Of a stretch of DNA of 64,000 bases, positions 60,111 through 62,420 are shown in pieces. The notes under the pieces are model-generated. The model was given only the letters and a program-made list of their open reading frames with translations, was not told the DNA's origin and did not search any database. Made by a program: the position numbers and the translations under genes. The DNA comes from Thalassobius sp. I31.1 (GTDB taxonomy: Bacteria > Pseudomonadota > Alphaproteobacteria > Rhodobacterales > Rhodobacteraceae), in contig NZ_PWAA01000006.1 in NCBI RefSeq assembly GCF_003031585.1, positions 1 to 64,000 of the forward strand, given 5' to 3'. How positions within the stretch are numbered: the first letter of the stretch is position 1; each line of letters starts with the position of its first letter.

Positions 60111-60184
60111 GCGGGTATGGTGAAATGGTATCATAAGAGCCTTCCAAGCTTAAGGCGCGGGTTCGATTCCCGCTACCCGCTCCA
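60111..60184 (+). tRNA. tRNA-Gly (anticodon TCC)
   Basis: A 74-base cloverleaf: acceptor GCGGGTA pairs with TACCCGC, anticodon loop CTTCCAA (TCC), T-arm GCGGGTTCGATTCCCGC, and an encoded CCA end (TCCA to 60184). The integrase gene begins 82 bases beyond the 3' end, so this tRNA is the probable attachment site of the element that follows. Confidence 0.95.
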
Positions 60185-60265: not shown

Positions 60266-61342
60266 CTACCAGTCCAGCCCTTCAAGGCGCTGCATTGCTT
60301 CAGAAGCCATCCGCCAACGCTCCACGCCTTTCGTGTAAATCTCAGATGTCTGTGCCTGAGTGTGCCCGTGAATCGACATGATTTGATATTGGGTGCAGCC
60401 TTCTTGTGCCAATAGGTGGGCGGCTGCTTTTCTGATGCCGTGGCTGGATCTGTTTTGAAGCCCGGCGTCCCTGCACCAGCGGCGAAACATTTGGCCTAAA
60501 CTGTCGGGTGTCGAGAATGGTTGTCCTTTGTGGTTGAGAAGATAGGTTTCCCCCACAACAGATGCGGCGCGTGTTGCTTTGTAAAGCGGGGGGAGCATCG
60601 GGATCTCAACGCGGGCAGATCCTTTCTTTGCGGGTTGCCAGGCGAGACCTCTGACGCCGTTGCGCTCAAATTCGTGATTTCTTCCCAGGCGGATGGCGTC
60701 ACCGATCCTGCAAGCGGTAAACATGAACAGGGTCAGTGTGAGGTAGGGTGTCGTACCCTTGCCGTGAAACTTCTTGAACTTTTTGAGGTCGGCGGCGGTC
60801 CAGGGGAGGGCACCGCCTTTCCCTTTGTCGATTTTTCCCACGCCCATAGCTGGGTTTACGTCGCAATACCCGACGCTGCAGCCCCAGCGGTAGAGGACGC
60901 GAATTGCTTCCACCATGCTGTCTGCCGAAGCTGGTGTGCTGATCATGCTGTCCCGGAACTCGACGACTTTGGTTGCGGGCATGTCGAGGGCATATTCGCC
61001 GTATTCTGCGCGAAATCTGTTCAGAAGGTGGGACCGTTTCTTAAGGGTCAATTGTGAGTATTGCCCTGCCTGAACCTTCTTTTCCAGATCGGTCAGGTGT
61101 TTGATGACCAGCCAGTCAATGGAGCCTCGGATAACGCGATCTTCAGCAGGTATCTCTGGGGTCAGGCTGATTCCCCGTCTTGCTGCATGGTAGTGTTCGA
61201 GAAACTCTTTGTGATCCGGTGTGACCGTTAGGGTGATCCGGCGGGCCTTGTTTCCATGAGTGCGGACGCGATACCTGAACCCACCCGAAGGCAAGCGCTC
61301 TTTCAAAAGTCCAGGAAGATTAAGCTTCATTTCTGCACACAT
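60266..61342 (-). CDS. int: Tyrosine-type site-specific integrase
   Basis: 358 residues. The N-terminal half contains the SAM-like DNA-binding part. The catalytic C-terminus keeps the family residues: the first arginine in FTACRIGDAIRLG near residue 213, HGIRKAAAHL (HxxR) near residue 299, then the histidine in IHGHTQAQTSEIYTK and the nucleophilic tyrosine at the end of that motif. It sits next to tRNA-Gly and is read away from the element, the typical layout of a phage or island end. ATG 61342 overlaps closely with the upstream small gene. Confidence 0.94.
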   Translation of the reverse strand: MCAEMKLNLPGLLKERLPSGGFRYRVRTHGNKARRITLTVTPDHKEFLEHYHAARRGISLTPEIPAEDRVIRGSIDWLVIKHLTDLEKKVQAGQYSQLTLKKRSHLLNRFRAEYGEYALDMPATKVVEFRDSMISTPASADSMVEAIRVLYRWGCSVGYCDVNPAMGVGKIDKGKGGALPWTAADLKKFKKFHGKGTTPYLTLTLFMFTACRIGDAIRLGRNHEFERNGVRGLAWQPAKKGSARVEIPMLPPLYKATRAASVVGETYLLNHKGQPFSTPDSLGQMFRRWCRDAGLQNRSSHGIRKAAAHLLAQEGCTQYQIMSIHGHTQAQTSEIYTKGVERWRMASEAMQRLEGLDW

Positions 61343-61345
61343 TGG

Positions 61346-61531
61346 TCAGTTCCAGCTCTTCGGTTGTGGTCCTTCGGGGGCAGGGCTGTCAACCTTGTTG
61401 CCGGAATGGGGCAGGATGCGAATGCGACCATCGGTTTCGATCACAACTTCCAGATCAGCATCGGTTTGAGCAACGGCCCGCAGTACCCGGGCCACATCCG
61501 CCTGTGTAACTTTCGCAGCGCTGCGCGGCAT
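61346..61531 (-). CDS. Small hypothetical protein upstream of integrase
   Basis: 61 residues beginning KVTQADVARVLRAVAQTDADLEV. It resembles the short proteins that precede integrases in alphaproteobacterial prophages. Function unknown; a DNA-binding or excision role is only a guess. A GGAGG site lies 15 bases upstream. It is followed 3 bases later by the integrase start. Confidence 0.75.
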   Translation of the reverse strand: MPRSAAKVTQADVARVLRAVAQTDADLEVVIETDGRIRILPHSGNKVDSPAPEGPQPKSWN

Positions 61532-61538
61532 TGACCTC

Positions 61539-61676
61539 TCAACCTCCTACAGCAGCGGCATCTGCGCTGGTTTCGTTTGTGGTGTTGGCGGTTCCCAGAT
61601 CCATTGGCATGAGGCCCATATCAAGGCCTCCGCCGCCTGCGCAGAGGGACAATCCGTTTGTGGGACGTGGTGCCAT
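61539..61676 (-). CDS. 45-residue ORF with a cytosine-C5 methyltransferase motif I
   Basis: A short frame, MAPRPTNGLSLCAGGGGLDM.., whose LSLCAGGGGLDMGL matches the first (AdoMet-binding) motif of C5-cytosine DNA methyltransferases. It ends after 45 residues in an unrelated Ala/Thr-rich tail with no PCQ or other later motif. It starts 2 bases after the upstream gene stop with an AGGA site and its end carries the RBS of the next gene, so it is likely translated. It is probably a truncated remnant or a mini-protein; not an active methyltransferase. Confidence 0.6.
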   Translation of the reverse strand: MAPRPTNGLSLCAGGGGLDMGLMPMDLGTANTTNETSADAAAVGG

Positions 61677-61677
61677 G

Positions 61678-62025
61678 TCATTTCCTGTCCTCAAGAGCGC
61701 GGGTTCTCAACGGTTTGGTGATGTTGTTTACTTGTCCACATGATCCGCACTTGAAGCGCAGGCGGTCCTCGTAGCTGTCCACCTCTTTGCGTAAGGCTTC
61801 ACGTCGCCAGTAAAGGTTGTCATCCTGATTGGCGAAACGTGCCAGAATCGCGATTGGGTTCAGAAGTTCACCGCAATCGGCACATTCAACTTCGCTGCGC
61901 ATTTCATCGACAAGGATGTTGTGGTGCTTGCACTTGAAGTTGCGCACAGCCCGCACGGGAGGCTTGCTGTTTGGATCTGGCTTGGCCCTGACGCGCAGCT
62001 TGTGAACGTTGTCTTCGTCAGCCAT
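61678..62025 (-). CDS. Zinc-ribbon-type small protein
   Basis: About 115 residues. It has two cysteine pairs, CKHHNILV..CADC and FKCGSCG, a pattern of a zinc-binding ribbon, separated by a helical WRREALRKEVDSYEDRL segment. ATG 62025 has an AAGGAGAAG site. Its start overlaps the previous gene stop (TGATG). Function unknown; phage-type location. Confidence 0.75.
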   Translation of the reverse strand: MADEDNVHKLRVRAKPDPNSKPPVRAVRNFKCKHHNILVDEMRSEVECADCGELLNPIAILARFANQDDNLYWRREALRKEVDSYEDRLRFKCGSCGQVNNITKPLRTRALEDRK

Positions 62026-62420
62026 CACATCTTCTCCTTCCACCGGAACAGGCCCAGAGCGCCCTTTACCGGGATAAAAGGAAGGGGCTGCACGTTATCC
62101 AGCACATAGCCGTAGGGGCCGAAGAACCACGGGCTGTCGGATTCTGTGACAACATCCACGATTTCAGCGGTGCCGATGATGCCTCCGCGATAGACATCTA
62201 AGTCATATGGGCTATCCATCTGATACTGTTCCCAGATGAAGTTTGAAGCTTCTGCGTAGTCTTTGCCATTCTTATACAGACTTGCGTGAATGCAGATCGG
62301 CCCGCGATACTTCCAGCGCTGTGGCCGGTTCTCGATGCGCTTACCCGCGTTCAGGATCGCCCAGGCCCATGGCTGGCGGATCGACAGGGCGCGGTCGGGG
62401 AGGTTGGTGAAATCGGTCAT
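62025..62420 (-). CDS. ASCH-domain protein
   Basis: 131 residues resembling ASCH (ASC-1 homology) proteins: LSIRQPWAWAILNAGKRIENRPQRW near the N-terminus and VKGALGLFRW at the end. ASCH domains bind RNA or hydrolyse modified nucleosides; some phages use them. Start overlaps nothing upstream but follows the small gene by 1 base. Confidence 0.85.
   Translation of the reverse strand: MTDFTNLPDRALSIRQPWAWAILNAGKRIENRPQRWKYRGPICIHASLYKNGKDYAEASNFIWEQYQMDSPYDLDVYRGGIIGTAEIVDVVTESDSPWFFGPYGYVLDNVQPLPFIPVKGALGLFRWKEKM

Follow-up and report, generated by a model that had tools for sequence, protein, structure and literature searches.

The mini-ORF of 45 residues at 61539..61676 on the minus strand of the window, by which we mean the whole stretch of 64,000 nucleotides analysed here, is very probably the scar of an in-frame internal deletion in a prophage C5-methyltransferase (MTase) gene of the type that we call A. 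The 3' end of that gene would have been kept as the translation start of the following gene, the peptide itself (MAPRPTNGLSLCAGGGGLDMGLMPMDLGTANTTNETSADAAAVGG) would probably be functionless, and the spot appears to have been rearranged repeatedly. "Type A" denotes the phage C5-MTase family that matches the 5' end of the mini-ORF and occurs in many Rhodobacterales prophages.

The mini-ORF and its two halves

The mini-ORF reads from an ATG at 61676 to a TGA that ends at 61539. It is located at the edge of a prophage, between an integrase cassette next to a tRNA-Gly gene and a gene for a zinc-ribbon-like protein (61678..62043, minus strand; phrog_4865, 4.5e-21; PF08271 just below its cut-off). 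The cassette consists of a small gene of 61 residues in the excisionase position (61346..61531, minus strand), for which no family scored above its curated cut-off, and a tyrosine integrase (60266..61342, minus strand; PF00589, E 1.4e-10; phrog_1, E 3.1e-26). The tRNA-Gly(TCC) gene at 60111..60184 on the plus strand is the presumed attachment site. A preliminary description of this DNA had reported a ribosome-binding site of the mini-ORF's own and close spacing with both neighbours, and both observations hold: purine runs (GAGGACAGGAA) precede the ATG, which is 1 nt from the upstream stop ending at 61678, and 7 nt separate the mini-ORF from the next start at 61531. A second frame of 44 residues (MTWHHVPQTDCPSAQAAEALIWASCQWIWEPPTPQTKPAQMPLL; 61547..61681, minus strand) overlaps the mini-ORF in the +1 frame. 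Its ATG overlaps the stop codon of the upstream gene, and its C-terminus resembles, by eye, that of type A genes read in the +1 frame.

As previously described, the frame contains motif I of C5-MTases, the AdoMet-binding loop (LSLCAGGGGLDMGL), and its 45 residues hold neither the catalytic motif IV (PC) nor motifs VI, VIII, IX and X. Searched alone against Pfam and NCBIfam, the peptide matched no family, and its residues 7-25 weakly match phrog_116 DNA methyltransferase (E 0.037). At the DNA level, the 76 bp at 61607..61682 (minus strand), comprising the start region and motif I, match the 5' ends of C5-MTase genes with E-values down to 6e-21 in family genomes and 1e-24 against fetched loci. 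Identity over this segment ranges from 78 to 91% (88% in G025 and G042, 78% in G014, up to 91% in viral contigs), and the long matches all stop at one base, ...GGGCCTCATGC. The 10 nt at the join, GGCCTCATGC (61607-61616), still belong to this 5' segment.

One type A member scores 107 bits against PF00145 and matches phrog_363 with E 1.8e-53. With a type A query, matches at or below E 1e-20 were obtained in 69 of 384 family genomes, the weaker of these being other C5-MTases as judged by their low identity, and relatives are encoded at 36 viral loci. At the same threshold neither the window's genome (G000) nor that of the sister species (G001) gave a type A match, and a PF00145 search of the former found two other places only, both on contig C65. 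Type A 5' fragments ending at differing points occur at L125, L126 and L127 (genomes G344, G284 and G356), and the L128 stretch (G211) contained no match to the motif I pattern applied.

Past GGGCCTCATGC, the mini-ORF continues as MPMDLGTANTTNETSADAAAVGG, whose first residue overlaps the join. The preliminary description had seen motif I and nothing else, and took the Thr/Ala-rich tail as unrelated. This part of it does not stand, as the tail aligns with the 3' end of type A genes in the same frame and appears to be derived from the MTase gene too. The segment at 61539..61606 (minus strand; MDLGTANTTNETSADAAAVGG) is colinear and in frame with the type A C-terminus, of which GLGPVDLAADGPGPAPGADGFP and GLGPVDLAAERGAGEPSADESL are examples, and agrees with the type A 3' end in about 60% of bases without gaps.

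We took the 48 nt that run from the join as far as GCGCAGATG and compared them with 41 distinct type A genes, drawn from L006, L007, L009 and L029-L094 by a script filter, with loci failing the filter left out. In 38 of the 41 genes, each searched over its whole length, the best ungapped match falls at a single site, 59 nt from the end of the gene and in matching frame, with 25-29 of the 48 bases identical. One run of dinucleotide shuffles reached so concentrated a position in 0/500 cases, the mean score in 0/500 and the best score in 5/500; in a separate run of 500, at least one shuffle reached the observed mean and at least one the best score. Because the 41 genes are related and not independent, the position outweighs the score as evidence. 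When the site is fixed by TGG[AT]TCTGG, the next 56 nt beat shuffled sequence, with the mean reached in 2/2000 and the best score in 6/2000 shuffles. GCGCAGATG itself occurs in the tail with the same spacing as in most type A genes. Read in the +1 frame, the end of the small ORF (QWIWEPPTPQTKPAQMPLL) and the type A-like PWIWRPTDQAQRPAQMDFL are identical at 9 of 19 positions, gapless and counted by eye. An unrelated origin of the tail was rejected in view of the concentrated, in-frame match to the type A 3' end. Both halves of the mini-ORF thus most likely derive from one gene type, in frame.

The tail also occurs elsewhere in the same genome. Its last 56 bp (61536..61591, minus strand) are common to prophages on contigs C13 and C42, where they recur at C13:54-109 (100%) and C42:220065-220120 (98%), and 46 bp of them are present in the sister species. 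On C13 and C42 this shared end is preceded by an open frame, VCPDLAEALVRSNCRHLA, that forms the C-terminus of another and larger MTase (type B). This raises the question whether the mini-ORF is a hybrid, with its 5' end from type A, its final ~16 codons taken from a type B gene as on C13 and C42, and a short filler between the two. One type B C-terminus (L100) does end CAHLAANIEQEAAHG / LAANIEQEAAHG, and the tail by itself gives no preference for type A: without TGGATCTGG and searched freely, it gave no significant match, the best score being reached by 58/500 shuffles for A and 90/500 for B. However, the supposed filler TGGATCTGG stands at type A spacing and in the type A frame, the tail that follows is colinear with type A including GCGCAGATG, and the 15 type B 3' ends gave no concentrated match. 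We therefore regard a hybrid join as unlikely.

The probable deletion and its relatives

Derivation from a single type A gene allows the size of the loss to be estimated. Measured from LSLCAG of motif I, type A genes are 307-412 codons long, mostly 347, 374 or 405 (14, 9 and 12 of 40), compared with 37 codons in the scar, so that roughly 0.9-1.1 kb are missing. For the three common gene sizes, the deletion would have taken about 310-370 codons, from motif I to the last ~20 codons, and would have left the frame open. The join carries GGCCTC, perhaps GGCCTCATGC, and GGCCTC is present at both ends in most type A parents. Illegitimate or annealing recombination at GGCCTC(ATGC) may have produced the deletion. 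RNA folding around the join is unremarkable (z 0.29).

The two ends of the parent gene are present, colinear and in frame, and no type A body was found in the assembly. This supports the earlier proposal that a deletion removed the body of the MTase while operon geometry was preserved. With the phage C5-MTases of phrog_363/PF00145, the scar shares the first ~25 codons including motif I and the C-terminal ~20, in the same order and frame; it differs from them in having neither motifs IV, VI, VIII, IX and X nor the recognition region, so that no enzyme is possible. No intact parent with the same ends was found in a close relative, and the shared end itself is found in only two of 394 family genomes, those of the window and the sister species. 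Knowledge of the type A parent thus comes from other genera only. The 3' match to known type A genes is at most 29/48 bases, and the join is inferred from these relatives.

In the sister species a scar of 18 codons (21 from an earlier ATG) is located at C33:222044-222108 and starts ATG-CCA-CCA-CGT-CCC-ACA-AAC-GAA-ACC... Save for one base, it equals the mini-ORF of the window minus the 81 bp between two copies of CCACAAACG, and motif I is gone. By codon counting, the first copy lies at 61655..61663 and the second, 81 bp (27 codons) from it, at 61574..61582, both on the minus strand. The 18-codon form may descend from the 45-codon one, or the full gene may have been cut down to it in one step; either route would give the same product.

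The sister scar bears on the suggestion in the preliminary description that a minimal AdoMet-loop peptide was kept for another role, for example as an inhibitor or a regulatory leader peptide. The frame is intact, has its own start codon 1 nt from the upstream gene, and the residues of motif I are conserved. However, the sister species, which is 97% identical at one core gene and is the only other carrier of the scar that we found, has lost motif I and kept the 3' end. Likewise, the end is present in none of the 394 family genomes beyond these two and its pattern in no viral contig, and a lone motif I loop is without the rest of the AdoMet pocket of C5-MTases. We consider a retained AdoMet-loop peptide very improbable, and reject selection on such a peptide, since motif I is missing from the scar that the sister species retains. 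The deletion scar itself is ordinary gene decay: with the tail most likely being the enzyme's own end, no new peptide is needed.

Contigs C13 and C42 of the window's genome both end at one base inside the type B MTase 3' end (L012:1-110 and L013:15065-15174), and their common end probably reflects a repeat that prophages of this genome share and that was collapsed in the assembly. As the assembler evidently struggled with this element, the mini-ORF itself might be an artefact, in which near-identical prophage MTase ends were collapsed or misjoined. The scar is, however, more than 15 kb from the end of its contig (C6), and the separately assembled sister genome has the same two scar ends deep inside a 320-kb contig, which makes an artefact scarcely credible.

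The shared 3' end as a proposed translation start and cassette border

We next consider why this particular end of the gene would have survived the deletion. The last codons and stop of the scar, TAGGAGGTTGAGA (61537..61549, minus strand; one occurrence in the window), contain AGGAGGT, which is the Shine-Dalgarno sequence for the gene that follows. The element is the same in the window, C13, C42 and the sister species, and the distance from AGGAGGT to the next ATG is 7-10 nt in all four (by eye). Beyond the shared end follow four different integrase cassettes. The first gene is the 61-residue gene without a family in the window, an HTH_17/excisionase-like gene on C13 and in the sister species, and an excisionase-like gene on C42; the integrase is convergent on C13 and follows on the same strand in the window, on C42 and in the sister species.

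Beyond these four cases, the 56-bp end is absent from the third genome of the genus and from 392 of the 394 family genomes (all but the two named above). A degenerate pattern of the end matched no viral contig. In genome contigs it gave four matches, the sister species plus Bifidobacterium, Prosthecobacter and Virgibacillus, and the latter three, which belong to other phyla, are taken as chance, judged from their hosts. The 46-bp identity between the window's genome and the sister species was discarded as a sign of constraint because of the 97% identity of their core gene.

The preliminary description had advised comparing related islands for an MTase at this position, and MTase C-termini do precede the excisionase and integrase genes on C13, on C42 and in G017. 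The G017 frame is a 5'-truncated type B C-terminus of 142 codons, followed immediately by an excisionase-like gene and then an integrase, the latter 45% identical to the integrase of the sister species. Paracoccus phage Pyei1 has a full type B MTase three small genes ahead of its integrase. With ten query proteins, the type B loci with a downstream integrase match were L107 (G017) and L104 (G299). A position directly before the integrase was not seen as the usual place of type A with the same ten queries; at the viral loci with matches, the integrase matches lie ~3 kb before the MTase. At the end of contig C65 of the window's genome (L015:14499-16202), a type B MTase frame that lacks roughly 69 residues at its start, motif I among them, shares sequence in a different frame with the end of a fragment of a RecT-like gene (phrog_148), and the contig stops within the MTase.

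In the scenario that we favour, the body of the type A MTase was dispensable and would have been lost through short-homology deletion or replacement. The 3' end of the scar may then have been retained as the translation-initiation region of the gene in the excisionase position, since the last codons contain a full Shine-Dalgarno sequence, at which ribosomes that complete translation of the remnant would terminate. In line with this, an open frame runs onto the shared end in all three joins (type A to type A, the shortened form of the sister species, and type B to the tail), which fits coupling of translation, three cases being few. The peptide of the mini-ORF would probably have no function. 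This prophage spot has been rearranged repeatedly: the full gene and its forms of 45 and 18 codons make up a short series of sizes, at a boundary beyond which the integrase cassettes vary.

The prophage of the sister species (L014:13723-15253) encodes an ERF annealing protein and a YqaJ nuclease, separated from the downstream 18-codon scar by a few genes. By analogy, these proteins could supply recombination of the kind considered here. Mosaicism produced by phage annealing recombinases has been described for E. coli phages (De Paepe et al. 2014, PMC3945230). With such mosaicism, and with ordinary prophage gene decay by short-homology deletion, the scar shares joins at 6-10 nt of homology and an exchange at gene boundaries between prophages from a single host lineage. 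Next to the scar in the window no recombinase was identified among the ORFs scanned, and the mechanism proposed here is an inferred one.

Apparent coding in two frames in the parental methyltransferase

The type A genes themselves have an unusual coding pattern. The +1 frame is open over the whole gene in 40/40 and the third frame has stops, the openness of frame 0 in these 40 genes being a result of how the set was selected. In the example L007, frame 0 extends over 1498-2655 and frame +1 over 1502-2668. We calculated dN/dS-like ratios from pairwise substitutions along the type A genes. Across motifs I-VIII the ratio is 0.07 in frame 0 versus 2.61 in +1, the latter serving as an internal control, and just after motif VIII it is 0.40 in frame 0 and 0.24 in +1. 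In the region that follows, the ratio is 0.09 and 0.03 in +1 versus 2.86 and 4.87 in frame 0. The next stretch gives 0.24 in frame 0 versus 1.07 in +1, and then 0.33 and 0.40 in the two frames. Around RLNPLFVGWLMG, a motif-IX-like sequence in the +1 frame, the ratio is 0.12 in +1 versus 2.52 in frame 0. Finally, at LLGNGVHPLAAA (taken as motif X) it is 0.17 in frame 0 versus 0.67 in +1.

Motifs I-VIII and X thus share one frame, frame 0, under purifying selection, and it is this frame that scores 107 bits against PF00145. Of 33 +1-frame products listed, 23 were scanned, and every one of these matches both phrog_27243 and phrog_1008 (DNA methyltransferase). Type A genes therefore appear to be under purifying selection in two interleaved frames, with motifs I-VIII and X in frame 0, and the recognition region and a motif-IX-like region in +1. 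The assignment of the +1-frame domain draws on selection patterns and family matches. Structure prediction of the lone +1 domain gave no confident fold (mean pLDDT 37.9), and a search of solved structures with this domain returned only matches with E 0.6 and 0.71, which were taken as chance. In a distant relative from Sphingomonas (38% identity over 61% of the +1 domain), both frames are open. For this relative and for Roseicitreum the annotation table, which is incomplete and omits pseudogenes, lists only the +1 frame.

No start codon common to all genes was found within 60 codons before the +1 region. Type A genes thus appear to have no fixed internal start codon, and the second chain would probably be made by frameshifting or re-initiation. 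The genes of M.EcoHK31I, a C5-MTase, overlap in alternative frames. Together with M.AquI, this enzyme belongs to the C5-MTases that are composed of two polypeptides (PMC3404938). The large subunit of M.EcoHK31I has motifs I-VIII and X, as does frame 0 of type A, and in two-polypeptide C5-MTases the other chain has motif IX, in keeping with the motif-IX-like region of the type A +1 frame (PMC3404938). The recognition domain of M.EcoHK31I is, in contrast, assigned to the large subunit, whereas the conserved sequence between motifs VIII and IX of type A is in the +1 frame (PMC3404938). Our search of the open-licence literature found nothing on such two-frame enzymes in these prophages, which is no proof of novelty.

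We give even chances to the wider reading that the parent of the scar is a frequent Rhodobacterales prophage C5-MTase encoded in two interleaved frames, whose second chain is probably produced either when ribosomes shift frame downstream of motif VIII or when they re-initiate. The scar would then keep the shared start region and the 3' end of this gene, and the latter may serve both as a translation start and as a crossover anchor for the exchange of excisionase/integrase cassettes. If two-frame coding is true, type A would be a form, common in phages, of an enzyme architecture that is rare and that annotation may split or miss. It is this parent family, and not the scar, that is the part worth following.
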